From Eucommia ulmoides (lineage: Eukaryota; Streptophyta; Magnoliopsida; Garryales; Eucommiaceae): DNA of 64,000 nucleotides. The stretch spans positions 34,299,534-34,363,533 of the forward strand of contig CM028330.1 of NCBI GenBank assembly GCA_016647705.1, written 5' to 3'. The notes under the pieces were generated by a model. It saw only the letters and a list, made by a program, of their open reading frames with translations. It was not told where the DNA came from and made no database searches. Position 1 is the stretch's first letter. The number at the start of each line of letters is the position of its first letter. Below are positions 1-57,023 of this stretch, one piece after another. The position numbers and the translations under genes were made by a program.

Positions 1-865
1 GTTTGGAAATTGATCTTAGAAATTGTTTCTGATTTTTTAAGAAAATATTTTTACAAACAATTTCTTGAATCTGATTACATGCTTCAATTTGCTACCCATA
101 TTCTTGTTAAAATCAGATTTTTATATCTCACATATTTCTATCACTAGTTGGGATATTAATCGAGTTATTATTTATCTGGGGTGGTAGAAGTTTCGAGTGA
201 GATTTTCTTCTTATCAATTTTTGTATTGGTTGTGACGGATTAAATACCATTGGGGGTGTTTAATCAAGGGTAGCTGGGTTTCAGTCTCTTCCTGTAAAGA
301 GATTGAGGTAGTAATTCTTCCTAGATAGAATTGCTTTGTGAGTGATTTGTAAAGATTCCATCATTACTTGGGAAAATGATAGTTGGAGTGTTTTGTGAGG
401 TTTTGATTCTTGAGCCGTAGTATTAAAAAGAATTAGGTTAATCTTTAACCTGTTAAAAGATAGGTTATTCTTGAGCCTATAAAAAGTAGAGGTTATTCTT
501 GAACCTTGGAAAAGGAAATTGTAAAGGTTGATTCTGAGCCTGTAAAAGAATCGGTATGTGGGTTTGGTTCCTACCTTTAAAGGGATCTTGAGAATTAGTG
601 GGTGCGAATCTCCGTGGGGCTCAGAGGACTGGACTAGCCAAGAGTAGCTTGATGAACTAGGATATATCTTGGTATACTGCATTATTAATTTGTTTATTTT
701 TGTTGTTTGGGTGTGCACTTAAATTGATAATATTATTCCGCTGTGTTATAAAGATAATAATTAATTTAGGCTTAAAATTAATTATTTGATTTATCAAGTG
801 TTATTCTGATATATTTTTTAATTACCCAATTCACCCCCTCTCTTGGGTATTCTATTGGGCCAACA
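1..865 (+). mobile_element. 3' part of a solo LTR, SIRE/Maximus-like Ty1/copia family
   Basis: Ends in CTCTTGGGTATT...GGGCCAACA, the LTR end typical of plant SIRE-type Copia elements. The same body, with its repeated 'gagcctgtaaaagaat' phrases, recurs in LTRs at 18646-21758 and 22881-27104. No primer-binding site follows 865, and transposase-like sequence starts at once, so this is a solo LTR rather than a complete element. The 5 bases after it are GATAG, so its target duplication is predicted to lie off the left edge. Confidence 0.75.
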
Positions 866-1905
866 GATAGTATTTGGTTTAATCAACATAACAAGTCCCT
901 CCGATATCATCAATTTTGTTTGCGGCACCTTTGCAGCAATTTCAACAAAATTGCTAAAAATCAGTATCTCAAAGATCTTGTTTGGAATTCGTGTGCTACA
1001 ACACAAATTCGAAAATACGATGCTACAATGGAAGAGATCAAAACAATTGATCTTCGGCTGCATAAATGGTTGAACGATATTCCAACTTACAAATAGACTA
1101 GGGCACACAACAATGGTAAACGTTGGGGAGTCATGACAACCAATTACGCATAGGTATTTAACAACTATTTGAAGGGTGCAAGATATGTTCTAATAACTGC
1201 ATCCGTCAAGACTACCTTCTACAGGATGGTTAAATACTTTGATATTGGTTGACAACAAGCTCTAAATGACTCAGCTGATGGTTACGTATATGCTAAACAC
1301 GTCGTTGAAAAAATACAAAAATCTCAAGCCAAGTCTAAAACATATGAGATTCAAATATTTAATCGATGATTTAGTATTTATTATTATTTTTTTCACGTTA
1401 TATATAATTGTTGCGACACATATTGTAATAAAATATGATTTTTTTTCTAGAGAGAATATGATCTACCACGTGAAAACTAGAAAGACTCTCATTGAGGGCT
1501 TGATTCCTCATCACACTGAGGGATAACGCTGATTGCACATGTGGCAAGTATAAAATTTGACGATATCCGTGCTCCCATATGCTTGCAGTCACCGAGTATA
1601 GTGGAGTTAATGCATTCCGCTATATTATAGCTGAGTACACAATGACAAATCAATTGATGGCATAGGAGCCATCGTTTCGGCCGATTATTCATGAGGACTA
1701 CTGGTCAGAGACCAATTTTTCGAACCTGATTCCAGACCATAACAGACTTCGAGTTGTGCATCGTGGTCGATCAAATTCCACTCGCATTTCAAATGAGATG
1801 GATCAGTCACGAAGAACAATGACAAATCATTGCGGTTTATGTTCCCAGACTGGACATGATAGGCGAAAGTGTCTATTCAAACCCCGCCATACACCCAATT
1901 GATCT
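866..1905 (+). pseudogene. Mutator-like (MULE) transposase, C-terminal half, decayed
   Basis: From about 895 one frame reads FCLRHLCSNFNK, then a stretch typical of plant MULE transposases (MEEIKTID, KWLNDIP, RWGVMTTNYA, FNNYLKGARYVL). It is followed by a SWIM zinc motif (CTCGKYK...YPCSHMLAV, about 1527-1590) and a C-terminal CCHC knuckle (CGLCSQTGHDRRKC, about 1834-1875), ending near 1903. Stops interrupt the frame after DIPTYK, after TTNYA, in the FDIG line, inside the SWIM motif and before the knuckle, so no active enzyme is made. The DDE catalytic core would lie upstream, beyond the LTR at 1-865. A MULE transposase cuts and pastes elements by recognising terminal inverted repeats. Confidence 0.85.
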
Positions 1906-2091
1906 TGTCGGTTCATTGTAATGAATGTTTATGCTACTTTATTTCTTTGTTATATCAACTTTTATGTATTATAAATTCCATGCACTTGTCGCACATATTT
2001 TTTTATAATGAATCTTATATTTTGTTTATTAATATGATTAAATTTTAATTTCGTACTAACAAATTTACCATAAGTGTTGCGGAAAAAAATT

Positions 2092-4482
2092 TCAGCTGTG
2101 CATCCTGAGCTCGCAGGTACTTCAGTTCTATACCTGCAAGGGGAGCACAGGTCCGAACTAGTTTGGGTAGCACAGGTAAATATTTAGGCTATTGCATTAA
2201 TTTTTTTATTTTAGTTTTTTAAAATTTTAATGTTATTCATTGTGTCTTATTAAATATTTCAGGATATTAGTACTTTTGACTGTGCTGGACATGATGTAGG
2301 GGAATGGAGAGAAAATGTCCCCCCTTGAGTTATACAGTTAATAGAATCAATCGGTATGTACAGCCCATTCAATTTGTGGCTGAAGCGGTTAGATAGGGCC
2401 CTCATAACCGCGTTGGTAGAGAGATAGTATCCAGAGACGCACACTTTCCATCTACCTGTCGGGGAGATGACCGTCACACTACAGGACGTGACCGTCTTGT
2501 TGGGGTTACCCGTGCATAGGTTGCTAGTTATCGCCTCTGATGACTCGCGATTGGAACCCGCCTGGCAGAGTCTTTGCGTCGAGCTCCTCGGAGTGGAATT
2601 GCCAATGGAGAAGATTAGGAATAGGTGTTTGATGCTCAAATAGTTATGGGATACCTTTGCTCAAGTTCTTGATGAGACCGACAAAGAGGTTATGCATTGC
2701 TACGCACATGCATATTGCTTGATTATGGTTGGTTAGATGTTGCTGCCTGATAAATCGCACAACAAAGTCAAACTAGCCTACCTCCCACTGCTTCATGACT
2801 TGACACCTTCCGTCAAGTATAGCTGGGGCAGTGCGACCCTAGCGGTCCTCTACCGCAAGCTATGTAAGGTGATGAAGCCCAACACGAAATACATAGCCGG
2901 CTGCCTATTTTTGTTGGAGTGTTGGGCTTGGGAGCGATTGCCGAGGCTTCGGCCTGAAGTTGTCCCTTTCCCTGAGTATAATATATCATTCGGAAAGTTG
3001 GATTTCGGCAATGACTTGAAGTTCCCAACTACTCCGAGGGGTTCTTGGTAAGTAATTAGTATTTTCTTTTTAATTTCATTTGTCATCTAATGGATATTTA
3101 TTTATGGATATTAAACTTATGGTTTATATTTTTGGTGTATAGGTGGACCCTTGAATTCAATTTGGAAAATTTACCAATGCATATTTTGGTGGTGTGTCAC
3201 GATCAATTAGATCTCTTGAAGAATGACGAGGGTAGTTATTTATTTACATCGATTTTTTTTTTTTTTTTATTTGTTTGTTTATATTTTATTTTACAGGTCA
3301 TTTGGATGCCATAAACCCTACCGACTTTGCCTCTATATACTAGAGATGGAGAAGATATTTGGATGGCAAAGTTACCCTTAATTTGCTATGAGATCGTCGA
3401 GTACACGCATCCCTTGCGCGTGCTACGACAGTTTGGTTATCGCCAAGGGGTTCCTCAGCCTGTAATTATGGACAAGAACTTGCACAAAATTACTCGGAGT
3501 GGATACTTCGATGTGAACTGGGCTAACCATCACCACGCACATATAGTTGCGTGGAATAATCGACGAGCGCCAGATGTTGGAAACTTCGAGCGAGGGATAG
3601 GGGTTGACCAAGAATACATGGATTGGTATTGGCAAATCACACGAAAATTTTTGGTCAACTCGGCGTACCAACCTCAGTTTGGGTATCTACCAGCAGGAGG
3701 AGAACTGGTGTTAGAGGTATGATCACATTGAGTGTACCATCTATTTAGTTATATGAGTTTGATTATGTTGTTATTATTCATGTATTAACTTAACGATTAT
3801 ATGTGTTTCGTAGGATATGGAGGTATCGAACCTGATACGCATGAGTCACCTAATTCTGCGGTTGCGTACTGCGGAATCAGGTATCGATTTGTTTCATGCC
3901 GTCTACGATGTCACCACCGGGGGGATGCACCATGGGGTACCATGCCATGTGGCAGCTGACATTCTTCCATCTCCTCAGGCTGCTCCTCAGCCATGAACTT
4001 CTGACGCATACCTTCCAGGTAGTGTGGGTGATGCCGGACCTTCTACATCGTATGGCATGGGCGCTTATGCCGGATCATCTAGTACGTACGACATGGGCGC
4101 ACATGCTAGATCATCTAGTACGTACGACATGGGTGACGATGTTGGGCCATCCGACGTGTACCAGATGCATAACCCTTATTCGCATTAAGCATCGCAGCTA
4201 AGTACAGACCCGTCATCGTCATTCGTCACTCTGGAGATGGACGAAATTATTTCAACTTCAGGCGTCATTCCTCCGGTGGCATTTGTCGAACCCACAAGAT
4301 TGCAAAGATAAGTGTCACCAGTATCGTGGTTTGAGGACGACGTCGATGCCATTCCGGCGAGTATGCAACAAGCGTTCATGAACTTTGGACAAGTTACACA
4401 AGTTCATGAAGAGGCTGAGGAACCTCCTATTGCACAACAACGAGGGCGGAAGAATGTCCGTCGTAAGGGTTGCGGTACATAG
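2092..4482 (+). pseudogene. Plant mobile domain (PMD, MAIN/MAIL1-like; 'PP7 long-form homolog') gene, decayed
   Basis: Five exon-like blocks can be joined with GT-AG introns: about 2092-2175, 2263-3047, 3143-3230, 3297-3716 and 3814-4482. They read HPELAGTSVLYLQGEHRS, then FHLPVGEMTVTLQDVTVLLG, AYLPLLHDL, RQFGYRQGVPQP and a basic tail RGRKNVRRKGCGT before the stop. This is the order seen in transposon-type PMD proteins, often annotated as serine/threonine phosphatase 7 long-form homologs although the PMD is not a phosphatase. At least seven in-frame stops are present; most look like CGA to TGA or TGG to TAG. A short tandem peptide repeat (SSSTYDMG, twice) lies at about 4077-4132. It follows the transposase in the same orientation, consistent with one MULE carrying both. 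Host relatives act in gene and transposon silencing; no function is claimed for this copy. Confidence 0.85.
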
Positions 4483-4603
4483 TTAGTTATGTAGTTGATA
4501 GTTTAGCTATATGAATGTAAATACATTTTTTTTGTAAATATATAGTTATATAGAAATTTATGTAGTTAGTAAATACATTTTTTTGTAACGTTTAGAGATT
4601 TAG

Positions 4604-4868
4604 AAAGTTGTTGATCTACCGTATATATTGCTTCGCAAATAGATACAGAATTTGAATGGGAGATCGAGCAATGTGTCTAACATTTCGGAAATATTCTTAA
4701 AAAGACAAACAAAGTAAAAAGTGGTTGAATATATATATATATACTCAATCACTTTATATTCTACATGCTTTTTAAGAATCTTTCTGGAATATTTGACACA
4801 TTGCTCCATCTCTCATTCAAATTCTGTATATATTTCTTAAGCAATATACACAGTAGATAAACAGCTTT
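4604..4868. repeat. Long imperfect hairpin (foldback), about 265 bp
   Basis: Left arm 4604-about 4730 and right arm about 4737-4868 are reverse complements at roughly 80-85% by eye, with an AT-dinucleotide centre. Shared blocks include ACAGAATTTGAATG and GAGCAATGTGTC. It sits about 120 bp after the PMD stop and before the convergent minus-strand gene. No clear target duplication is seen. It could be a foldback MITE or a small-RNA-producing hairpin in the 3' region of the PMD gene. Confidence 0.75.
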
Positions 4869-5433
4869 TTATGGAAATACCTATCGATGTACATTATTAT
4901 ACACGCTTGTTGTACTTTTTATTCCATCTTCGGGAGTTGTATATACATATTTATTCATTATGATTTTGAAAGATTATTTTCTGAAGGCAGACATGATACA
5001 AAAATTAAAGGCGAAACAACTCCTAACAATATAACACTAATAGTGTATTGTTAGTATTCGATTAACCAAGTTGAGAGAATTTGAAATCATAATTAGTATA
5101 ATTGTCAATATAAAGGGTCGGATTATACTCCTTGATATAGTATAATAGTAATGGATATTTGGTTTTAGTATACAATTCTCCAAGGAGAGAAACAGTGTAA
5201 TAGTCCTGGAAAATCGGGTCGTTACAGAAAGAGTATAATATTAAAGGTGAAACAATTTAAAATAATCATAAACATCATATTAAAAAAAAACATTACATAA
5301 ATTAGAAACATGTTTGACGGTGTTTGTTACAAAACTCATAACAAAAACAATACATAAGAAATACAGTATATAATATCACGAAAATAGTGACAATAAAAAC
5401 ACTTGAAAAGAAAATACCAGAGCCAAAAATTAT
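4869..5433. other. AT-rich stretch, no gene seen
   Basis: Region between the hairpin and the end of the minus-strand gene. It is AT-rich with no open frame or recognisable element. It presumably contains the 3' untranslated sequence of the two convergent transposon genes. Confidence 0.5.
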
Positions 5434-6660
5434 TTATTCTTCATTGGACATGTACTCCTCAGACAAATATCCATTGTTATTTATCACGTTATGGTATTCG
5501 TTTGGAGAGAGTGTCATGTTGCTTGCGACAGCCATTTCATTAGCTAGTTGTAGTAGATAATATTTATTTCTACGCAATAACATTCGATTATTCTCTAGGC
5601 GAATTCGGGTAATAACATCTTCAATCTCGGTTGTGTCATCAATTATACATCGTCTAGGCATCTGAAGACTTCGACGATACGGAACTGGTGCATTAAGATT
5701 TCTCAAACAAAATACAAGGTTGTTAGACTCATTCACCCTGTATTCCCATTCTTGGCGTAGACCGACGCGATACTCTATCGGGTTGGTCTCTTGATCACTC
5801 TAGTAATCATCATAATATGGTTTTAAAACCCAACATCTTTGATGATCCCATGGTCCAGGCCAACCCCAAACACCATATGAGTTCTCCTCACTTAAAAAAC
5901 CAAATGAGGTTTCTTCACTTGAATTAATATGTGAAGAGATCACAAAAATTATAGGCTGAACAGTTTCTTTACAAATATTATACTACAAATTACGAGTTTA
6001 CAAAAAAAATAGTTTTTTTAAAACATAATTAATGAAAAATGATGTTTTATAACTTATGTACACGAGCCTTAACTAAAAAAAAGTTAACCCAATACCACCT
6101 ATCTATTGAAAGAGAAAAATTCAGTTGTTTGGTAGAAGTAGCGTTATTATAATTTAACGTAAAAATGATACATTAGATTTCAAAGAAAATACATAATTAA
6201 ACTGCAATTCACCAACGCGAAAACATTAAACATTATTCTCATCATCAGACATTTTAATATCTGACTGATATTGAGGATTCTTTGCACATCTCATGTAAGT
6301 ACGCGCTTCGGCGAACAAACCTTGTTCGAGATGCTCACATACCGTTGTTTCAAGCTCATGTCGAAAAGTTCAAATTTGCATTCGGTTATTTTCTTTGCGG
6401 TAGCGATGCAACGCCATTTGAAGATTATGCGGCGTGTCTATTGGTATTGTTCTGGCCAATTGACACACTAATAGAATATTATATTGCCTGCATCCGTTCA
6501 CCATAACCTCTGATTGGTTGACAAAATTAGTGTATCCCTCCCGCATCCTTGCAACTGACCGTGAAGAGTAATGAACTATTGGATCTAAAGAGTATGAGAA
6601 TTCATCTTCCAAAAGCCAGTGACGTCCCATTGAACGATACAAATCTCTCACCGTGTACAT
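5434..6660 (-). pseudogene. Unrecognised two-exon gene, minus strand, two in-frame stops
   Basis: Exon A 6660-6232 starts MYTVRDLYRSMGRHWLLEDE, has one in-frame TGA after KENNRMQI, and continues through FRHELETTV to MSDDENN. A GT-AG intron (6231-5956, 276 bp, phase 0 on both sides) leads to exon B 5955-5434, which reads PIIFVISSHINSSEE, SYGVWGWPGPWD, one in-frame TAG, then EYRVGLRQEWEYRVNESNN and ends YLSEEYMSNEE. The joined product would be about 315 residues, with no signal peptide or membrane segment, several acidic patches and a basic central part. I recognise no domain. It converges on the PMD gene and, with it, probably belongs to the same MULE. A non-coding first exon and TATA box appear to lie at 8321-8509. 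Confidence 0.55.
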
Positions 6661-8320
6661 TTTTCAATCTTTTTCATTTTATTTGTTTTTAAATTAGTCA
6701 ATAATTTAATTTTTCCAAACACATTAAAAAATAAACTAATTAAGTAACTAACATTTTTTTAAAAAAATAATCTATTACAATTTCTATTTCATTTTTTATT
6801 TTTTCACATGTGTAATTTATCAATTTTGAAGGGCCAAAGTGCATTTTTTAAAATTAAACAACTAAATTAAAATTTTAAACTAATTAACTAAAAAATAATT
6901 TTTTTTTAAAACAATATATTATAATTTATATTTTTCTCACACATGTATAATTTACTCAAATTTTGAGGGCCCAAAGTGCATAATTTTCAATTAAACAACT
7001 AAATTAACAAATTAAACTAACTAAGAAATTAAACAACTAAATTAACAAATTAAATTAACCAATTAATTAACAAATTAAATAAGTAAATTAACTAACAAAC
7101 AGATTAACTAAATAATTAAAAAAGTAAAAAATATAGTAATATTTCAACAATTTTTTTTAAATAATACATTAATTTTACATTTTCCTATACATGTGAAAAG
7201 GGACAAAGTGTAATTTTTAATTTAACAACTAAATTTAAATTCAAAAATGAAACTAACTAACAATTTATTTTTAAACAATAGGTTGGAAAATTTATATTTT
7301 TCTAATTGTCAAACTTTCAGGGGCCAAAATTTATATTTTTAATTAAATAGCTAAATTAAAAAAACTAAACTAACTAACTAATAATTTTTTAAAATAATAT
7401 ATTAATTTATATTTTCTTACACATGTGAAAAGAGTCAAAGTGTAATTTTTAATCTAACAACTAAATTAACAAATTAAACAAATATATTTTAAATTAAATA
7501 ACTAAATTCAAAAATGAAACAAAGTAACAATTCATTTTAAAACAATAGGTTGAAAAATTTATATTTTTCTAATTGTCAAACTTTCAGGGGCCAAAGTGTA
7601 TATTTTTAATTAAATAGCTAAATTAAAAAACTAAACTAACTAACTAACATTTTTTTTAAATAATATATTAATTTATATTTTTCTACACATGTGAAAAGGG
7701 CCAAAGTGTAATTTTTAATTTAACAACTAAATTCACAAATTAAACAAATATATTTTAAATTAAATAATTAAATTAAAAAATAAAACTAACTAACAGTTTA
7801 TCTTAAAACAATAGGTTGAAAATTTTATATTTTTCTAATTGCCAAACTATCAGGGGCCAAAGTGTATATTTTAATTAAATAGCCAAATTAAAAAGTTAAA
7901 CTAACTAACTAACATTTTTTTTAAATAATATATTGATTTATATTTTCCTACACATGTGAAAGGGGCCAAAATATAATTTTTAATTTAATAACTAAATTAA
8001 CAAATTAAACTAATCAACTAACTAACAAATTAAACAACTAAACCAACAAATTAAATTAACAAAACAAACAAACTAACTAATAAGTTAAATAAATAACAAA
8101 TTAAAATTAAACTATGCTCTAATGTTTTAAAAAAACAAAATTAACAACTAAACTAATTAACTAACTAACTAATTATTTTTTTAAACAGTATATTATAATG
8201 TGTAAAAAACAAGTAATCAATCAAACTAACAAACATGTAAATTAATCAAACTAACAAATAACAAGTAAAAAAAATACTAATTAAACTAATAAATAAATTT
8301 AAAAAAAAAAAAAAACTTAC
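6661..8320 (-). other. Putative first intron of the minus-strand gene, very AT-rich
   Basis: On the minus strand a consensus donor (CAAAT|GTAAGT) at 8320 faces a pyrimidine-poor acceptor near 6665, just before the ATG at 6660. The 1.65 kb between is almost entirely A/T with runs of AACTAA/TTAACAA and no coding potential. It contains the tandem array annotated separately. Confidence 0.45.
6800..8010. repeat. Tandem array, unit about 265 bp, AT-rich
   Basis: The phrase CACATGTGAAAAGGGCCAAAG recurs with variation near 6806, 6943, 7185, 7421, 7684 and 7949; the last three are spaced 263 and 265 bp. A second phrase (AACAATAGGTTG) recurs near 7275, 7541 and 7806 at the same spacing. Earlier copies are shorter or more diverged. 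Each unit also has an internal half-repeat (GGGGCCAAAGTGTA). Confidence 0.8.
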
Positions 8321-8509
8321 ATTTGTAGGAGGAGGGACGAGTTGTGAAATTGTGAATTTGTTAAATTTTGATAAAGAAAATCGGCCAAATAAATGATGAA
8401 CACTCTGATTAAAATGAAGAAAAATTTTAAATGAGGAAGAAAATGAGGAAGAGCGGAGCAACTTGGATAGATAATGAGTAAGATTGGAATGTTATAGGGT
8501 ATAAATATA
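8321..8509 (-). promoter_or_regulatory. Candidate promoter (TATA box) and non-coding first exon of the minus-strand gene
   Basis: On the minus strand TATATTTATA (8509-8500) is followed by about 150 bp of pyrimidine-rich leader ending at a consensus splice donor (GTAAGT at 8320). Spacing fits transcription starting near 8475. This is inferred from sequence only. Confidence 0.4.
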
Positions 8510-8559
8510 CAGCTAATGGTCAAAAGCAGTTGTATTTTGCAGTTGCAAAATGCTGCTTT

Positions 8560-8713
8560 TATTAAAACCTACAAAAATGTTGCCTGCCTACAAAAGGCAG
8601 GCAGCCTTTAGCCTGTCAAACGTGTACCGTTTGACCGGCCAAACGAAATGGCACATCGCTGTTTGTGAAACGGGGATATGCCGTTACAGGACCGTTTAAT
8701 TTTTTATTTTTTT
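8560..8713. other. Upstream region with short inverted repeats
   Basis: Contains TGCCTGCCTACAAAAGGCAGGCA (a near-perfect inverted repeat at about 8582-8604) and GTTTGACCGGCCAAAC (about 8630-8645), directly upstream of the palindrome array and behind the candidate promoter. Confidence 0.5.
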
Positions 8714-8951
8714 TTATCCCAGCGTTAACAACGCCGGGATCAAAATAATTAAAAAAGATTATTTTATTTTTTTATCCCTGTGTTGACAACGCCGGGATCA
8801 AAAAAATTTAAAAAATATATATATATTTTTTATCCGGGCATTCTGAACGCCAGGATCATTAAAATTAAAAAAAAAAAATCCCAAATGATCCGCTCGTTCA
8901 GAAGGCCAGGATCTAGTCCCGACGTTACCAATGCCGAGATGCTTGCATCTC
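8714..8951. repeat. Array of five GC-rich palindromes in AT-rich DNA
   Basis: Five diverged copies of a palindrome near ATCCCGGCGTT-nnn-AACGCCGGGAT lie at about 8716, 8774, 8832, 8887 and 8915, with early spacing of 58 bp and poly-A/T between them. A further perfect palindrome GAGATGCTTGCATCTC ends the array (8936-8951). Confidence 0.75.
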
Positions 8952-8989
8952 GTAAATAAGTCCAAATATTGATTTTTCAGTAATTTTTT

Positions 8990-9174
8990 TTAAATATTAT
9001 TTATTAGGTAAAGAACTAGTATATTTTTTATTTTTTATTTTCTTTTATTTTGATTACTTTTTATTTTATTAAAGAGATAGAAACCAAATAATTTGACACT
9101 AAAAATATATTATTAGTGGTATTTTTTAATTGCCGTTAGAATAATTACTGCTAAAGACTGTTTTTCTTGTAGTG
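8990..9174. mobile_element. Terminal part of a CACTA (En/Spm) transposon
   Basis: The sequence ends TTTTTCTTGTAGTG at 9174, the reverse complement of CACTACAAGAAAAA, the diagnostic CACTA terminus. Just inside are CACTA-like subterminal units (ACTGCTAAAGAC, TTAGTGGTATT). The matching end is not found in the window, so this is an orphan or truncated end; the inner boundary is approximate. Confidence 0.8.
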
Positions 9175-9610
9175 TACCAAATGTATTTAGTCTCTTTCTA
9201 TTTAATCACATTCAATAGCCAAATATTCTACTCAACATTCAAGGTCTACAACGATGAAGATATAACTTCTAGAATAATATCAATAAATACCTTTTTGTTA
9301 ATACTTGAGATTGAAATGTTTTACAAACATAAGTCTTAAATGTAATATTACAAGAATGACTATAGCGCTGACATCTAACAATAAGTCTCATTGTGGTTGT
9401 TCTAATATCTCATTTTAATAGTTTGAGACTTACCACTCTCAAAAGAGAAAACAATAAAACAAGTTAGCCTAAATTGTTGAATAACAGTTTTCAACAATTA
9501 AATTAACTAGGGACAATTTAGAATATCAAGTCACCAAATGTCTTTGGTATCCACATTTTAAGCATATTAAAGAGGTAAGACTTCTACTTAATATTTAAGG
9601 TATACAACAA
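9175..9610. repeat. Ancient tandem duplication of host DNA, about 350-bp unit
   Basis: ACCAAATGTATTTAGT...CTACTCAACATTCAAGGTCTACAAC (9176-9252) resembles ACCAAATGTCTTTGGT...CTACTTAATATTTAAGGTATACAAC (9532-9608). The second copy is cut at 9610 by the Gypsy element; its continuation at 18324-18420 resembles 9258-9360. Confidence 0.5.
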
Positions 9611-10262
9611 TGATAAGACACGACACTCTAAGTTTCGAGATATGAGGATATCTCCTAGCATTCACTTTCTCTTAGTTTAGGTTCCTACAAAACAATGCAC
9701 TGCGGCTACGCCTACTGGCGGCATTGCACCTCCGATGTAAGAATCAGTCAAGGGTTTCTCTGCAGAATTTGGCAAAGTGATGGCTAAGAAAAAATGTAAG
9801 TACATGGTTAGCTCATCATTCTGGTATTTATAAGCGGGAAAAGACTTGTTTGACACGACTTCCCTAATTCTCGACTTATCATCATTAAGGTGGCAATAAT
9901 CTCGGTCTATTGCCATTAAGGTGGAGAGAAATATGGGAATGTGGATCGTGGGGGCCATTACTCAAGAGAGGTAATTGTTCATTCCTTATATAGGTGCACG
10001 CAATTCTAACTACTCTCGATAAAAGTAGTGTCAACTCTCTCGCTCAGGGACGTAGCCCTGACTAAGATATGGAAAGGGAGTTAGGTTGAGTTAGCCCCCT
10101 AGTCAGTTTTGGGGTAGAGTATTTCTTGATGTGATGTCGCTTGGCTAGAGTGTTTCTTGAGGTGACGTCGCTTGGCCAAGAGCCTACTGTAGCTTCTCGT
10201 ACCTGTCATGTGCTTAAGGACACGTGGCTTTGTTTTGGGCCTCGTCGAATTTTCCCTTATCA
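9611..10262 (-). repeat. 3' LTR of the Gypsy element
   Basis: Matches 17659-18318 along its whole length, with shared phrases such as CATCATTAAGGTGGC and ACACGTGGC. The similarity seems to run about 45 bp further inward (10263-10305), so the inner edge may be longer than annotated. Confidence 0.8.
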
Positions 10263-10398
10263 AATAATATTGATATAATTAAAGAATAATATCAAAATAT
10301 TATTGTTGTTTTTCAACCAATAGTCACTTCTGCCTCGTTGTTTGTCGCTTTAAAGCCAAACCTTTGCCCGTACTCCAGGATAACACCCTTGGGGGTGT

Positions 10399-10717
10399 GC
10401 CCGACCCCCAAAATGCTCTGGTTTGATAATCCATCAAAGTGAGTCATCTAAGCGTTGGTAGCATGTTGGTCGAAATCTGGGATAGTTTATTCCATATTCG
10501 GTGTTTTTTTTCTAGGAAAGTGAATTCCGATATGAAGTCTTTTTAATGTGCCTAACCCCTAAAACACTCCAGTTTGATGATCCATCAACGTGAGTCGTCC
10601 AAGCACTGGTAGCATGTTGATCGAAATCTGGGACAGTTTATTCCATATTCTATGTTTCTCTTTTGGGAAAGAGAATTCTGACGTGAAGTGTTTCTAATGC
10701 CCACCCCTTGATAGCCA
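10399..10717. repeat. Direct tandem duplication, about 160-bp unit
   Basis: 10399-10557 and 10558-10717 share CCAGTTTGATGATCCATCA, AGCATGTTGRTCGAAATCTG and GTTTATTCCATATTC. It lies beside the 3' LTR, where integrase coding would be expected. Confidence 0.8.
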
Positions 10718-11783
10718 TTTTTAGGCGGTACTCGAAATAAAACTCCCTGAGTTTGATTAACCACTTTAGTAGTTACTTGAAAGTTTTTGGTCGAAGTAGA
10801 ATGACCCTCAGTACTTGATTGGTCAATACCACCGTTGGGTGAGCTTGGAAATAATGTTGAAATTTCTTCATTGATATTATCAACGAGGAGGCTATCAGAT
10901 CCAGTAAAGGATAATGAGATTCTGCTCCATTCAAAGCGTGGCTGACGTAGCATTGGGCCTCTAAACTCCTTATTCCTCAACTACAAGCGTCAAGCTCACA
11001 GCGATATTCGAGGTTTCCATATAGATAATCATTTCATGACCCAACTTTGGGGTGGTGAGAATTAGTGACTTCGAGATATACTTCTTGAGTACTTATAAAG
11101 CTTCCTCACACTCGTCGTTCAACACCAAACTTTTGTTCCCCAAAGGGTTTTGAAAAAAGGTGGGCATTTATTCGATGCCCGAAAAAGTAAATGATTCAAA
11201 CTGCTACATGACCTATTAGGATTTCCACCTCCTTGACCGTCCTTGGTGACATCATGTTTAGGATCATCTTGACCTACTCTAGGCTAGATTCAAATTTCCC
11301 TTCTTGTTACCAGATAGCCAAGGAACTTCCCGATGCTGACCCCGAACATACATTTGCTCGGGTTGAACTTCATCTTATGTTTCCTTAGCACGTTGAATCA
11401 TTCTTACAGATTGGCTAGATGGTCACCGACCATTTTGCTCTTGACCAGCATATCGTCGATGTAGACCTCCATAGTCTTCCTAAGAGATTGATGAAAATTT
11501 GTTTACCAGACTCTGATATGTTGCTCCTATATTTTGCATCATAACTGTATCAATTTGTAGCAATAGAGGCCATTGTTAGTGATAAAGGTTGTTTTCCCTT
11601 TGTTGGGCGGATACGTGATGATCTGTTTGTATCCCGAGAAGGTATTGAGAAAGCCGAGTGACTCGTAACCAACAGTGGCATCTAGGATTACGTCGATCTT
11701 TGGCAAGGGAAAATAGTCATTTAGACATGCTTTGTTAAGGTTGGTGAAGGCTACACACATGTGTCACTTCCTTGTCTTTTTCT

Positions 11784-13440
11784 ATAGGGAAAATTACATT
11801 TTAAACCCTCTAACTATTAATAGATTTCTAAGTAGTCCTCCTAAATTTTTAAGTTTCATTTTAAAGTCTCTACATATAAACACAGTTTTAAAAGGTCCCT
11901 CTGTTAGATTTTTCATCCAAACTAACAAAATGAAGGGAAAAAATAGTACTTTTCTATTTTTTTTTTCATTTTTTTAATCATTTTTCTCTTTTTCTTTTTC
12001 TTCCTTTTTCTTCACTTCACCAACCTCTCTCTTTCTTCGACTTTCTCTCTTTCCACCACCTTCTTCCACCACCGTCGCCACCACCACCAATGCCATTTCC
12101 ACCCACGCAACCACTACCCTGCTGCCACCAATGTTGCCGACAGGGTGAACCACCCTCGTAACAGGAGATGGTTCACCCCCTGTTATGGTGGTGGTTTACC
12201 CCTGTAATAGGAGGTGGTTCAAGGGGTGATTCCCCACTAATATGGGGTGAACCACCCCATGTTACGAGGATGTTCAGGGGGTGGTTCACCCCATATTACA
12301 AGGGGAATCACCCTTTGTAACGTGGGGTATTGGGGTGAAACCCCCTGTAACGTCCTCATCAATGTCGGCACCAAGAACTCTCATCTCTCCCCCCTCAACT
12401 CCTGCTTGTGCTTCAAGCTTAAGTTACCGAAAAACTAATACACTTGCTTGTGATTGGTACAAGTACTATTCCTCCTCCTCCTCACCACCCCCTCTAAACA
12501 ACAACAATGGCTGAACCATCCTCATGTACTTCTTCAAAGCATGGCTCAAATTGAACCTTATCTTCCTTTTTCTCCCTTTTTTCTTTGCTTTTTTCTCCTT
12601 CGTCATTGTCATTACAAGCCATTTTCTCCACCTCGACATCCCCTTAAACAACGAGAAAGAACCAGATTTGTTTTTCTTCCTCCTCCCTCTCTTCCTCATC
12701 TTTCTGTCTCGTGATTATTGTTAAGTTAATGATAATTTTTGTGGGTTTTGTTTGGAGTTTGTTGTTGTTATTGTTGTTCATCTAATAGGTCTCTAATAGG
12801 GAGAGTGAAGATGTCCATGGAGTTGGTGGAGGAGCGAAGGGAGATGAGGAGGTGGTTGTGGAAAAATATATCGTCGGTTGGAGATAAATCAATAATAGCG
12901 GCAGAGGGGAGAGAAGATGGTGGTTTGGTAATTTCTAATCATCTTGTTGTTGAAGAGAGACAGTGAAGGAGAATTCATTGGAAGGAAAGGATGAAGCTGA
13001 GGGTGGTGACGGTTGTTGGGTTTCTCGCTTCGACTCCTTTTTAGTTTTTTTTTTTTCCCATTTTTAGGTACGCCCAGAGCCTGTCTTTCTCTTTCTCTCT
13101 CTCTTCTTATTCTTCCTTTGATAGTTGGAGGAGAGATAAGAATAAGATCAAAAAGTAGTAGAGAGAGAAAGATAAGGTGGAGAGAAAGAGAGAGTAGGGG
13201 AGAAAGAGAGGACAATGGACGAAGAAAAAAGAAACAGAAAAAAGAGAAAAATGATTAAAAATGAAAAAAAAAATAGAAAATTATTATTTTACCCCTTCAT
13301 TCTGTTAGTTTGAAAGAAAAATCTAATAGAATGACATTTTAAAACTGTGTTCATACGTAGAGGGTTTAAAATAAAATGTAAAAATTTAGGAGGACTACTT
13401 AGAAATATGTCAATAGTTAGAAGGTTTAAAATGTAATTTG
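11784..13440. mobile_element. Non-autonomous MULE with about 150-bp terminal inverted repeats
   Basis: The left end (ATTACATTTTAAACCCTCTA..., 11792-11940) and right end (reverse complement of 13290-13437) match over about 150 bp, including CTAAGTAGTCCTCCTAAATT and AACACAGTTTTAAAA. Imperfect 9-bp repeats TCTTTTTCT (11775-11783) and TTATTTTCT (13441-13449) flank it. It interrupts the Gypsy RT. The interior has purine/pyrimidine-biased tracts and no transposase. It is related in terminal sequence to the Pack-MULE at 43791-45366. Confidence 0.8.
12135..12350. repeat. Cluster of short palindromic repeats in the MULE interior
   Basis: GGTGGTTCACCCC and its reverse complement GGGGTGAACCACC, joined by GTAACAGG/CCTGTTAC, recur many times with variation. 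The surrounding sequence is GC-richer than the element ends, suggesting acquired or locally expanded sequence. Confidence 0.65.
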
Positions 13441-13984
13441 TTATTTTCTTCACTACAACCTCATTCGTTATCTAGAGAGGAAAGTTGATCTCTTCGATAG
13501 TGTCTTAATCAAGCAGCTTCTTAGTTTCTTATTCAATCACGGCCTATCGTTCTAATCAGAATTTTTGCTGCTTCTATCAAACTGGTGGATACGCCGGATC
13601 GATGTACAACCGACACATGGAGATACTCCGGTTGATCCCACGTAGATCTATATATGACCAGGTGAATAAATTATAGTTGGCTTTGAGTAGCTCGATCAAT
13701 TGCTCTCTTGTCTCCTAAGAGGGCTTTCTCGATCTGGACAGTTCAGTCCAAATTGGTCAGGTGTATTTAGACATCCTCGAACTCTTCGTCAAGATGAGGT
13801 AATGAGTAGTTTGATTGTTCAACTTAGGGGGTCCAGAATATCTTTTTTCTCGTGATGCTCTGTCATGTCCCTATGCAGAAAGTCCTCATTGACCTCCTCA
13901 TTCTCTTATTGTTATTTGGGAAGCTCTATCTCAGTCACAAAACACTCCCCAGCTACTTTTTGGCTCTCTCGTACCTTGTTGATC

Positions 13985-14480
13985 CTATTCTTGATCGGTA
14001 ACTTCAGCATCAAGTGGTATGTTGAAGTGATGGCCTTTTAACACGTTTAGGCACGACCTTCTGATAATAGCGTTATACACAGATGGATAGTCCACTACCT
14101 TAAACCTTGCGTTGACAGTCAAGTGCTTCGGCTCTGTTCCCGTTGTGATTTGAAGCGTAATCCAACATCGGGGCTTCATATTTTTCTCACTGAAACTAAC
14201 CAGGGGAGTCATCATTAGTTTTAGCTGGTCACGATCGATACCCATTTTGTTGAATACAATTAAGTAGAGTATCTCTACTGAGCTGCATTTGTTACCAGCA
14301 CTCACCCCACGTTATAGTTGGTGATATGTAAGGTGACCACCAATATGTCATCATGTGACATGTGAACCCTACACAAGTCTTCCTCAGTGAAAGTGATAGC
14401 CTCTCTTTCTCTCTCTGCAAGAGACTTCTTGAACACTTGGAACATGTATTCCTCAGTCGAGCATTTAACCCACTGAGCAT
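13985..14480 (-). pseudogene. Gypsy aspartic-protease region
   Basis: The minus-strand frame (14305-13985) reads SSVEILYLIVFNKMG, WITLQITTG and FKVVDYPSVYNAIIRR, which matches the retropepsin-linker region of Tat-type Gypsy elements (strand after the catalytic Asp, VVD.PSAYNAIIGR). The catalytic DTG-like segment should lie just upstream but is obscured by shifts. It would process Gag-Pol. Confidence 0.65.
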
Positions 14481-14506
14481 GTATCTTATGCTCGGACTTG
14501 GATAGT

Positions 14507-15858
14507 TGGTAGCGCAAAATTATTTCGTCGTTACTTTTACCGCAAGTGTACGGTTCAAGTTTTAGTATAGATTGGGAAGAGTAGGGATTGTCGTATCTAC
14601 AGGGATTAGATTAGATTATTGTTGAGTACCGCGATTGTCATAACCGGACTTTATCTATGCGACTTAAATTTAGGTTTTTATAATAATTATAAACTAAACT
14701 AATTATACTAATATATTAGTATTGACGTTTAAGGGAGTAAATTGTCTAGGAATTAACTTTGTTCATTTAAACGCGTTCAATTTAATCTACTTTACATTAA
14801 AGGCATTCACATTATCCGACAATTTAGGTATTGAAATCTCACTCACTACCTCTCCCGAGTGTAAATGAATGAATATGTGATTTTGCGTCAATGCCAAAGT
14901 CCTCCTCAAGCGTCTATACGACACTTAGTCACATGAGTCTCTCCCCAACCTCACTGATTGCATACTTTCTAACACCCTCTCGAGTCATTAGATCATCACG
15001 TTGTGTTTAAACCCTAGTTCGAATCTGGGGTTATCTCTCCCGAGTGTCAAACTCCGTATTCTCAAAATCAACCCTAATACCATAACAAGTATATTAAGAT
15101 TGTAATAAAACAGTAAACAGAATCGGATAAACATGAACAACCATTAACGAAACATTAATTTATTCAAAGCACGTTTTCGTGAAATACATCAAGCCCTAGA
15201 CAATATATGTTTAGCTATATATGGCCATAGCCCTATATACAACTAGAAATAAGCTAAACATATACAAAACAATCAACCAATCTAAGAAATAAAGAGAGAA
15301 ATGAGGAGACTAGCCGTTATCTGAAGAACTGTCGCTAAAACCGCTCCAAGAACGTTTCCTCTTATTGACTTTGTGATCTTCTCTTGGTTGAATGGCTTTG
15401 GAGCTCTCAAGACACTCCCAAAAATGTTCCTAAGTGTTTGGGGGGAAAGAGAGGATATTTATAGGATCCAAAATATCAACAAAATATCCTAAAATATCTA
15501 AATTGTCTGGCACCTGACTGCTTCAGCGGTAGAGAAGTCTGTGGCTTTCTACTGGATGACCGCTGTAGCGGTGGAGCTCTCTGTATTTTTTCGTTGCAGC
15601 AGTGGAAATGCAGCAACTCTTTGTACTTTGACCGCTGCAGTGGTGGGCTGCAGGTTCTGAACTTTTATCTTTTGCTCGTTTTTCCACCGTTCTTCCACCG
15701 ACTCGCTCGTTTATAGATCATTTTTGTCCATTTTCACCCCAAACACCTGGTTTATACATAAACAAATAAAAACATATTAAAATATAATAAAACACTATAA
15801 AAATACTCGAAAACTACCAAAAGTGGGTTTGAAATAAATAGATAAATTACACCTATCA
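14507..15858 (-). mobile_element. Solo LTR nested in the Gypsy element, target duplication ATAGT
   Basis: 1352 bp from TGGTAGCG to CCTATCA (minus strand TGATAGG...CGCTACCA), flanked exactly by ATAGT at 14502-14506 and 15859-15863. Its gag-side and protease-side neighbours join when it is removed. It has no coding capacity. Three GC-rich units around CCGCTGNAGCGGT lie at about 15525-15655. Orientation is inferred from the polypurine-poor end and is uncertain; the family is unidentified. Confidence 0.8.
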
Positions 15859-15869
15859 ATAGTCTTCTG

Positions 15870-17627
15870 GAAGCGAATCCACCATGGATTGTGTGGATGC
15901 TCCTGCAAACCTCATGTCTTTCTCTCTCTTCGTCAGGGCGTTGTCGCCCTGATCTTCTTCAGTTGTGAACCTCTAGAGGTGACCCTATAAATAAACTATT
16001 TGATCTCGTTCTTCAATTCGTAGTAGCTATCAGTGGTATGACTGTGGTCCCGGTAAAAGTCATACCACTTATCTGAGTAGGTTACTTTTCCTAGACTCTT
16101 CATCGGTTGAGGCTACTTGATCAACTTCTTGTCCCTGATTTGCATCAGGATCGTCCCCAAAAAAGCACTGAGGGGGTGTAAAGTTAGTGAATTGCAAGGA
16201 AGACCTATTCATCCCCGACTTCTTATTGAAACCACCCCTCATTGTCTTGTTTTTTTTCTTCGAATAGGAGTCATCTCGACCGAATTTGTTGTAGTAGGGC
16301 TTTTCAACCTTCCTTTTCCCTTTGGTGTCCTCTTCTTCTTCGTCCTGAGATCGATACATATCCTTCGTGGTAATGAACTAGGTGGAGAGGGCCAAAGTCA
16401 TGGCCAAAGTCTTTGGTGGGACGTGGGCCATGTCATGTTAGAATGTACCTATCTGCACCCCCACCATCAGGGCGGCCATAATTATCCTATCATTGAGCTC
16501 ATCAATCTGGTCAGACTCACGGCGAAATCTCTCAATATAGGCTTTCAGTTTCTCATCCTTCTTTTGCCTTATCGACATAAAATGTGATGGATTTTTAGCT
16601 CGTCACTTACTGCTCAGAAGACTTTGTGCGAATGCAAAGCTAAAAGATTTAAAGGAGTCAAAACTACCCAATTTCAATCCTTGTACCATTTGTGCACAGC
16701 TCTGGCGAGGGTCACCGGAAAGAATTGGCATTTTGTTGAGTCCGAGGCTCCGCGCAAGTCCATATGAGCATGGTAGGTGCCTAGGTACTCCGCTGGGTCA
16801 GAATTTTACTGGTACGTCACAATTTAAGACGACATATTTAAGTTAGTCGAGACTTTTTCCCGTAGCACCCGAGTAGTAAAAGGAGAATCATTCATCTTTA
16901 CTATCTCATAAACGTTGGGCTTCTTCTTCCCAATTTGTCCTAATTTTTCATTGATGGCCTTACCTGGTCATGGAGGTCCTTATCGGTCTATTGATCTAAG
17001 TCACTTCTCTGATCCCTCAACCAAAATGTCGAGAAGACTTCCACTGAAGAAGGTAGAGCATTGCGAGATATGTCATGGGTCTTTCTTGCAACTCAGGTAA
17101 GTCGCGTCTTATTTTTTCTTGCAGGCGCTCCGTTCAGCCTCTGTCGGGGCTAAGAATGCCCGGGGTCCCAATCACGAGTGCATATTGGGGGTCTTCTCAG
17201 ATTGCAGGACCTCAAAGCCTCGTCGGTTGTTATAGATTCCCTGACGCAACTCGTCTCTCTCTTTTCAGATTATCTTTAATTCTCGACGGAGATCATGCTA
17301 TGCTTGGCAACGCTTCTCCTCCTAACGTTGTTTACACTAAACACATCGCCCCTCATCCGCAATAGGTTGTGCCTCACTCATAGGTAGCACGTGCCCTTAT
17401 GGAATGAACGATCGCAGAGGTAGTCGATTCTAATTAGCTTGTCCAGTCAGATACCAGACGGTTTGAGAAAGATCTTGGATCTCTCTCATCAATTCCAATA
17501 AGAGTATAGGTGACTCTCCTAAGAGACCAGCTTCATGATCTGCTACGCAGATCAATTGTCTTTTACTTTCATTTTCATTGGTCATGATCCCAAATCTTAG
17601 AGTAACCACATATTTTTGTGAAAGCAA
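15870..17627 (-). pseudogene. Gypsy gag
   Basis: The minus-strand frame begins near 17627 (MLSQKYVV) just inside the primer-binding site. It runs through poorly preserved capsid sequence to a lysine-rich block (KRKVEKPYYNKFGRDD, 16359-16069) and a degenerate WYDFYRDHSHTTDSYYELKNEI (about 16060-15990), the remnant of the YCxFHxxxGHxTxxC region that ends Gag in this lineage. Several cysteines and histidines are lost. It is broken by stops throughout. Confidence 0.7.
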
Positions 17628-17636
17628 CTATCAATC

Positions 17637-17655
17637 GTTCCCATATACGGTGCCA
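17637..17655 (-). other. Primer-binding site of the Gypsy element
   Basis: On the minus strand TGGCACCGTATATGGGAAC starts 3 nt inside the 5' LTR end. It resembles the TGGCGCCGTCTGTGGGAAC site common in Tat/Athila elements. It fixes the element's orientation. Confidence 0.75.
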
Positions 17656-17658
17656 ATA

Positions 17659-18318
17659 TGATGAGGACAAAAAATGGTTCACTAGACACATTACTCTAAG
17701 ATTCAAGAGATTAGAATATTTCTTAGCTTAATTCACTTTCCCTCAGCTTGAATCCTTACAAAACAATACACCACAGGTGGGCTTACCGGCGTTGCACCTC
17801 CGGTGTGAGAATTAGTTAGTTGAGGGTTTCTCCGTAGAATTTAGCAGAGTGGTGGCTAAGAAAAAATGTTTGTTCCAGATTAGCTCACCATTAGTATATA
17901 GGAGCAGACGAAGACTTGTGTGACAAGTCTTCCCTAATTCTCGGCCCATCATCATTAAGGTGGCGATGATCTCGGCCTGTTGCCATTAAGGTGGTAATGA
18001 TATAGGGGCGTGGATCGTGGGGCCATTACTCAAGGGAGGTAATGACTCATTCTTTACACAAATAAAGGCAATTTTAATTGGTTTGAGTAGAAGTAGTGTT
18101 GGCTCTCCCGCCCAAGGGCGTAGCTTGACCGATATGTAAAGAAAGAGCCAGGTTGAACTGGTCCCCTAGTTGGTTTCGAGGTAAAGTGCTTCCTGAGGTG
18201 ATTTTTGGGCTAGGGATGTCTCGTCGACCTGCCAAGAGCCCACTGTAGTTTCCCATGCTTGTCATGTGCTTAGGGACACGTGGCGTTGTTCTAGGCCTCG
18301 CTAGACTTTCCCTTATCA
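17659..18318 (-). repeat. 5' LTR of the Gypsy element
   Basis: 660 bp, TGATGAGG...CCTTATCA on the plus strand, paired with 9611-10262 and followed outward by the target copy AACAA. Confidence 0.85.
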
Positions 18319-56587: not shown

Positions 56588-57023
56588 GTGTGGGATTTGG
56601 AAGAAAAAATTGGCGATAAAGGCCATAGGTTAGCTGTGAAGGCTAAAACATATATGGTTGGCTATGAAGGCCAGACCAGATGGAGCGATGAAGGCTTTAG
56701 AATTTCCTAGAAAAAAAAACCTAAAGCTTTGATGCCATCTCAAGAAAAATGAATGTTTGATATATTGAATATGAGGCTTTTTATGCCTATATATACAAGA
56801 AAAATGAATGTGGGATTTGGAAGAAAAAATTGGCGATAAAGGCCATAGGTTAGCTATGAAGGCTAAAACATATATGGTCGGCTATGAAGGCCAGACCAGA
56901 TGGAGCGATGAAGGCTTTAGAATTTCCTAGAAAAAAAAACCTAAAGCTTTGATGCCATCTCAAGAAAAATGAATGTTTGATATATTGAATATGAGGCTTT
57001 TTATGCCTATATATACAAGATAA
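56588..57023. repeat. Duplication of Copia A leader plus LTR end, about 213-bp unit
   Basis: TGTGGGATTTGGAAGAAAAA through TATGCCTATATATACAAG (56588-56800) is repeated almost exactly at 56810-57023, so two copies of the LTR-primer-site junction lie side by side. Confidence 0.88.

Follow-up and report, generated by a model that had tools for sequence, protein, structure and literature searches.

A decayed Mutator-like element of Eucommia ulmoides with a transposase gene, a PMD gene and a tandem pair of small genes, P1 and P2

The whole 64,000 nucleotide stretch of Eucommia ulmoides DNA that was analysed (the window) contained the right-hand 9 kb of a large, decayed Mutator-like element (MULE) of approximately 15.2 kb overall. 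The left end of this element was near 3786 bp of L009, 6.2 kb outside the window, and its right end was near window position 9018, both exact ends being set by eye; the element therefore extends beyond both ends of the 866..8951 span given in the first-pass annotation. Terminal repeats of approximately 2 kb surrounded the transposase gene, the PMD gene and the minus-strand genes jointly (Table 1). The left repeat, at about 3786–5680 bp of L009, was the partner of the right repeat, with inverted matches to window positions 8560–9003 (76% identity) and 7621–8315 (89% identity). The right repeat contained tandem arrays of 266 bp units (7236–8010) and 58 bp units (8704–8835). No convincing target duplication was found for the window copy, as only 6 of 10 bases were alike by eye. 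A candidate splice donor was seen by eye near 8319 in the right terminal repeat, where it would fit a 5′ leader exon.

Table 1. Features of the element in the window (. indicates no strand)
Feature	Position	Strand	Evidence or remark
LTR-like insert, right part (solo LTR by look)	1..865	.	TG...CA ends, GATAG on both sides
MULE transposase gene, 3′ part, with stops	866..1904	+	tblastn with E1 transposase
PMD gene, three conserved coding blocks, all with stops	2254..4479	+	PF10536, tblastn with E1 PMD
P2, 168 codons, one in-frame stop	5437..5940	-	91% identical to E1 P2
P1, 144 codons, one in-frame stop, paralogue of P2	6229..6660	-	83% identical to E1 P1
Right terminal repeat region, including tandem arrays	6690..9018	.	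Inverted match to L009; exact end by eye

A transposase remnant had been noted earlier at the left of this region, and tblastn with the transposase of a better-kept relative, E1, confirmed it as the 3′ part of a MULE transposase gene. The pieces in the window showed 79–88% identity to the E1 transposase, and two long pieces contained 3 and 2 stops. The 5′ part of the gene was outside the window, at 6949–8712 bp of L009 (79–90% identity to E1 for the window and L009 pieces together). The E1 transposase matched PF10551 (E 3.5e-17) and PF03108 (E 1.3e-7), identifying it as a MULE-type DDE transposase. The window gene seems truncated at 866 because it is split by the LTR-like insert of approximately 2.15 kb, which by eye ran from 8713 bp of L009 to window position 865 and was flanked by GATAG at 8708–8712 bp of L009 and at 866–870 of the window.

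The PMD gene was in the same orientation as the transposase, in agreement with the first-pass annotation, with PF10536 matching three plus-strand pieces (E 6.2e-14, 3.9e-22 and 2.6e-14) at 52.4–79.3 bits, above the cut-off of 34.9. The conserved blocks (2254–3048, 3234–3719 and 3814–4479) showed 78–79% identity to the E1 PMD and contained 4, 1 and 3 stops respectively (tblastn). The gap between the two genes had been given as 190 bp. The conserved PMD sequence began approximately 350 bp after the transposase, which does not contradict the shorter gap, as splice signals permit a candidate upstream exon near 2094–2178 (by eye). The MULE PMD protein is related to a gene-silencing protein of plants; in our own tree, in which well-supported forks were few, the MULE PMDs were separate from an intronless cluster on C4. 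Angiosperm MULE groups 42 and 45–50 were reportedly described as PMD-bearing by Dupeyron et al. in 2019.

What had been taken for a single convergent gene of two exons with no recognised domain was indeed on the minus strand and without such a domain, but it was found to be two genes, P1 and P2, because both frames were complete in the better-kept copies and were paralogous to each other. The two were tandem paralogues with 33% identity (E about 1e-12), and the single two-exon gene was rejected. By eye, the window P2 had no ATG at the start position of the better-kept copies. Neither P1 nor P2 had a meaningful match in Pfam, NCBIfam or PHROGs, the three PHROGs matches of P1 (E 0.077–0.13) being judged to be chance, and a PDB search with the 96 amino acid piece of the window P1 returned no match. 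Pattern matches to P1 numbered 9 in bacterial and archaeal genomes and 30 in viral contigs, none of which was confirmed as a relative. P1 and P2 yielded neither a recognised domain nor a nuclear signal, and their amino acid composition and helix moment pointed to no function.

The better-kept copy E1 was 12,261 bp long and had all four genes inside terminal inverted repeats of 1.8 kb (89% identity), with a perfect target duplication, AGTAAAACTA, of 10 bp (the MULE range is 8–11 bp). Terminal inverted repeats were not found in the copies E2 and E2b, the left ends of which were not reached. The right end of E2 was set where two copies part; an 11 bp repeat considered as its target duplication did not fit this end and was rejected.

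The P1 and P2 queries each had at least 150 scored matches in the genome, with best identities of 76–100% and 84–100% respectively, and given these numbers the frames are not chance. All of the 30 best-scoring P1 loci, the window's own among them, were read. P1 and P2 occurred together on one strand in 30/30, and MULE transposase or terminal-repeat sequence was no more than 1.5 kb from them in every case. The earlier suggestion that this MULE family carries the convergent gene as accessory cargo was thus upheld for this genome, with the cargo being two genes. Homologues that were host genes away from MULEs would have spoken against it; none was found among these 30 loci, which left P1 and P2 as host genes unsupported. 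The terminal repeats surrounded the genes in the window copy, and most clearly in E1, and did not separate them.

A transposase was listed within 12 kb of 93 of the 150 listed P1 matches, against a chance expectation of 0.69, and just two arrangements were present among these 93. The MuDR-type arrangement, in which the second gene is convergent to the transposase, was that of the window and of 29 matches. The other 64 had the arrangement of E1, where P1 and P2 follow the transposase on one strand and convergence to the transposase is absent. P1 was convergent with PMD in all 32 listed matches that had a listed PMD within 9 kb. The 54 listed P1 matches with neither a listed transposase nor a listed PMD within 12 kb are by themselves no evidence for host genes, because the listings give lower bounds, one match was the window copy and MULE parts adjoined the seven others that were read. 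Stops were present in 76 of the 150 listed P1 matches and absent from 74. One locus that was read had the transposase and PMD but had lost P1 and P2 by deletion, and P1 and P2 were not found in the 9 kb read around three further PMD loci (L060–L062). The window element is a decayed member of a high-copy MULE family that encodes a transposase, PMD as a protein of its own and, on the strand opposite PMD, the small-protein pair P1/P2 in tandem; that the four genes belong to the MULE is, for this genome, nearly certain.

Comparison of E1 with E2, which represent two subfamilies, showed P1 and P2 to be 90% identical with both frames open in both copies, whereas the transposase was 70–82% and PMD 53–68% identical. 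The dN/dS values were 0.27 for P1, 0.15 for P2 and 0.14–0.23 for the transposase, which indicates purifying selection on P1 and P2 between the subfamilies; the value for P1 was not below that of the transposase. The transposase has changed more than the P1 and P2 proteins, and the silent sites of P1 and P2 have also diverged less, with dS, calculated from few sites, of 0.20 (P1) and 0.33 (P2) compared to 0.51–0.91 for the transposase and PMD. Because of this lower dS, the identity of P1 and P2 may reflect exchange between subfamilies and not stronger constraint. In recent P1 and P2 comparisons, which held few changes, dN/dS was often near or above 1, and between the window and E1 copies of P1 dN exceeded dS (1.38). 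In the noncoding DNA of E1 and E2, the P1–P2 intergenic region was 84.7% identical, the transposase–PMD intergenic region 76.8% and the P2 3′ flank only 71.6%; the window and E1 noncoding DNA was 87–93% identical with no contrast between stretches. As the E2 copies are alike, comparisons with them count as one. The arrays of E1 and E2 had no unit or tested motif in common. The motif GGGSCSAAARTG, picked after looking, occurred 18 times in E1, 0 times in the E2 stretches and 3 times in the window element.

We tentatively propose, at somewhat under an even chance, that P1 and P2 are helpers that act in trans and occupy the place that mudrB has in maize. Their partner may be one that the subfamilies share, either a host factor or the complex of transposase and element ends, since the arrays of E1 and E2 have no common unit though P1 and P2 are 90% identical; their targets would then not be subfamily-specific DNA motifs. 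P1 and P2 could work as a pair, and PMD, which changes faster, would be the part of the MULE that faces the host. P1 and P2 were kept in both gene orders. The locus without them that retained the transposase and PMD fits action in trans, and it also fits plain dispensability.

Dispensability is what would be seen if P1 and P2 were captured or leftover genes with no role in transposition, carried by successful elements; stops in about half of the listed P1 matches and the frequent capture of sequences by MULEs (PMC6446971) agree with this. We consider it unlikely in view of the low dN/dS between subfamilies, the frames open in E1 and E2, the two gene orders in which the pair was retained and the 74 listed matches without a stop. 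A VANC-type anti-silencing role for P1 and P2, in which they would bind short motifs in noncoding arrays and strip the family's DNA methylation, is also unlikely. The terminal repeats do carry large noncoding tandem arrays, GGGSCSAAARTG is frequent in E1, and VANC binds motifs accumulated in VANDAL tandem repeats; however, VANC proteins and their targets change together (both statements from PMC5735166), whereas P1 and P2 differ little between E1 and E2 despite the differing arrays and the motif's absence from the E2 stretches and scarcity in the window element. P1 and P2 are also small. That a MULE remnant adjoins unrelated host genes by accident is scarcely credible: the window copy has decayed, contains an insert and lacks a convincing target duplication, but E1, with four genes within terminal repeats and a target duplication, already refutes this, and the association held in all 30 loci read.

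The low dS of P1 and P2 and the closer similarity of their intergenic region would be explained if recombination or conversion had exchanged P1–P2 as a cassette from one MULE subfamily to another, its low divergence reflecting recent shared origin. The poorly conserved P2 3′ flank, the even noncoding identity between the window and E1, the few sites and the single independent E2 comparison count against this, and we regard it as possible but on balance doubtful. It is compatible with P1 and P2 being helpers, and both can hold. That they are a distinct two-protein helper system with no relationship to MURB or VANC, which moves as a cassette between MULE subfamilies and, jointly with the PMD protein, turns a host silencing pathway to the element's favour, is distinctly improbable as a whole.

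Mutator elements carry second genes such as mudrB and ORFR, and here a plant MULE has a pair of such genes. Many P1 and P2 frames are open in nearly identical copies, the locus without P1 and P2 is a natural comparison, and PMD is in the same element; if P1 and P2 are helpers or act against silencing, a single genome would offer every part needed to study the conflict between element and host. PMD-bearing MULEs are already described, as are MULEs with a convergent uncharacterised ORF (mudrB of MuDR and ORFR of Abermu). A paralogous pair with low divergence was not met in the available portions of the literature on PMD in MULEs and on MULE accessory genes, which does not prove the pair unpublished. 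In the part of PMC6446971 available, angiosperm MULE groups 42 and 45–50 bear PMD, and neither an ORF description nor a paralogous pair was found for the PMD-bearing groups; a Solanaceae group tabled there as 'unknown ORF and PMD (antisens)' resembles the window element.

PMC6446971 and PMC9168764 describe maize MuDR as having a small gene of no known function, mudrB, on the strand opposite the transposase, which is apparently required for integration. The window element likewise has a MULE transposase and small opposite-strand genes towards the other terminal repeat; compared by description, its family differs from MuDR in having a paralogous gene pair as well as a PMD gene, terminal repeats of approximately 2 kb and a length of 12–15 kb. 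Barley Hvu_Abermu, according to PMC9168764, has ORF1, ORF2 and ORFR, and in gene arrangement alone it is similar, with two ORFs, one of them the transposase, on one strand and a convergent ORFR without a known role. Its authors considered ORFR possibly unimportant for transposition, which counts against P1 and P2 being helpers. Abermu has a single ORFR and not a pair, its terminal repeats are 138–145 bp, and ORFR diverges three to five times faster than the other two ORFs, the reverse of P1 and P2. PMD-C, the clade of the host proteins MAIN/MAIL1, also occurs in captured form within MULEs of grasses and Amborella, for which anti-silencing was speculated in PMC5418596; in those elements PMD and transposase form one fused gene, whereas in the window element PMD is a separate gene. 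VANDAL elements (VANA, VANB and VANC) resemble the window element as MULEs that carry additional genes as well as noncoding tandem arrays (PMC5735166). Unlike VANDAL, both the window element and E1 are bounded by long terminal repeats, and it is the arrays that vary between subfamilies while P1 and P2 do not.

P1 and P2, the two minus-strand genes lying in tandem between the plant mobile domain protein (PMD, PF10536) gene and the right terminal repeat of the decayed Mutator-like element (MULE) in the window, were 144 and 168 codons long. An alignment of their products showed 33% identity over ~105 residues (E about 1e-12); when P2 was shuffled 1000 times, 976 of the shuffles gave a score, the highest being 25.0 bits, against 49.3 bits for real P2. 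For neither gene did Pfam, PHROGs or (window pieces only) NCBIfam yield a match of meaningful score.

The plant transposable elements and the PMD in the window are angiosperm marks. The inverted repeat partner of the element's right end (8560–9003 at 76% and 7621–8315 at 89%) was located outside the window, in the stretch to its left (L009). By eye, the element ran from GAGTTCTTTACC at L009 3786 to its complement, with the last base changed, at window 9018, a length of ~15.2 kb including an LTR-like insert; its flanks showed no convincing target duplication (6/10 bases alike, by eye). A better-kept copy on contig C5, E1, had 20 bp identical ends, a perfect 10-bp target duplication (AGTAAAACTA) and terminal repeats of ~1.8 kb with 89% identity. 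Its open frames were PMD (+), P2 (−), P1 (−) and transposase (−), the last containing both a MULE domain and a MuDR DNA-binding domain. As a copy on C6 was 98.5–99.0% identical to E1 across two long matches, the E1 subfamily must have moved recently.

Coordinates of the window element, E1 and further features
Feature	Location	Details
Transposase gene of window element	start L009 6949, continues from window 866	interrupted by LTR-like insert
LTR-like insert, ~2.15 kb	L009 8713 to window 865	TG...CA ends, GATAG both sides (by eye)
MITE-like small insert	L009 ~3808–3943	ends TTAGGAAA...TTTTCCTAA; breaks left terminal repeat of window element (by eye, alignment)
In-frame 36-bp tandem repeat, PMD C-terminal block	window 4056–4133	2.2 copies; 2.9 in E1, 7.4 in E2 and E2b
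Inverted repeat between PMD and P2	window 4601–4871	104-nt arms, 85% complementary, 63 nt spacing; only one arm matched by E1
E1	C5, L042+L043+L046 joined, 5868 to 18128	12,261 bp
ORFs beside MULE copy without P1/P2	L059 ~3359–7593	resemble MATE-type transporter exons (by eye)
Nine PMD matches clustered on one strand (among scored matches)	C4 ~2507473–2604771	six with whole domain uninterrupted, open frames 784–909 aa; separate from MULE PMDs in tree
ORFs resembling retrotransposon polyprotein pieces (by eye)	window 11539–11763, 52522–53292, 59754–60662, 61372–61926	
220-bp unit	window 56589–57020	two tandem copies, 99% alike

In a search of the one assembly (946.7 Mb, 391 contigs), P1 gave 1179 candidates and P2 1289, of which 150 each were scored. 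By our own count, 74 of the 150 scored P1 matches contained no stop, and for at least 108 of the 150 a same-strand P2 was listed within 2 kb downstream. Reading of the 30 best-scoring P1 loci, which include the window's own and in which the E1 subfamily prevails, revealed a same-strand P2 in all 30 and an opposite-strand PMD C-terminus in 28; within 1.5 kb of P1 there was transposase in 26 and terminal-repeat sequence in five, with at least one of these at every locus. PMD was listed within 9 kb of at least 32 of the 150 P1 matches (0.33 expected), a lower bound because 117 of 2460 candidate PMD loci were scored, and was convergent in 32/32. The gene order of the window element and of E2, a copy of another subfamily, is unlike that of E1, as transposase and PMD are both directed towards P2 and P1. 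A transposase was listed within 12 kb of 93 of the 150 scored P1 matches (0.69 expected by chance); 64 of these were in the E1 order, 29 were convergent with the transposase and none was arranged otherwise.

Between E1 and E2, P1 and P2 were the least diverged element proteins (90% amino acid identity each, versus 70–82% for transposase and 53–68% for PMD). Their dN/dS (P1 0.27; P2 0.15, 147 codons) was not below that of the transposase (0.14–0.23; PMD blocks 0.26–0.63), and their dS was also lower (0.20 and 0.33, versus 0.51–0.91 for the others). These codon comparisons show P1 and P2 to be constrained between the two subfamilies. Exchange of the P1–P2 block between subfamilies is possible but unproven; noncoding identity between E1 and E2 was mixed, at 84.7% between P1 and P2, 71.6% in the P2 3′ flank, 76.8% between transposase and PMD and 72.7% in the first PMD intron. 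Noncoding DNA of the window element and E1 showed no contrast (87–93%), and dN/dS between them was 1.38 for P1 and 0.34 for P2. Among closely related copies dN/dS was scattered and in part above 1, with few changes underlying it.

The terminal repeats contain tandem arrays. The motif GGGSCSAAARTG, picked post hoc after inspection of E1, had 18 occurrences in E1 and three in the window element but was absent from the stretches of E2 and E2b (a copy grouped with E2), whose arrays differ from those of E1. VANC of VANDAL elements recognises its own motifs (PMC5735166, available portion); that P1 and P2 would read these arrays in the same manner is unlikely, because they are nearly alike in E1 and E2 while the arrays are different. 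We favour, by analogy, a helper role like that of maize MURB, which is apparently required for integration (PMC6446971, in the part available); P1 and P2 would then act on the transposase-end complex or on a host factor. Ikeda et al. (PMC5418596, excerpt) speculated that PMD may serve in anti-silencing. At L059, a C8 locus with transposase and PMD, similarity covers PMD, reaches sequence immediately downstream of the P2 3′ end (window 5337–5398) and resumes at the terminal repeats (7014 on); P1 and P2 were not found within the 9 kb of this one locus. Since L059 keeps MULE parts without them, P1 and P2 are not required in cis, which fits either action in trans or dispensability. Among the matches listed, at most 21 of 94 transposases, an inflated figure, had no listed P1 or P2 within 9 kb.

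Plant MULEs with PMD are widespread, and a table in PMC6446971 lists an unknown ORF alongside in one case. In barley Abermu, the transposase is accompanied by a second ORF and by a convergent ORFR, which evolves faster than the other Abermu ORFs (available text of PMC9168764), whereas P1 and P2 are the opposite, being the least diverged. Relative to the portions of the related literature available, the paralogous P1–P2 pair, its low divergence and its occurrence in two gene orders are new.
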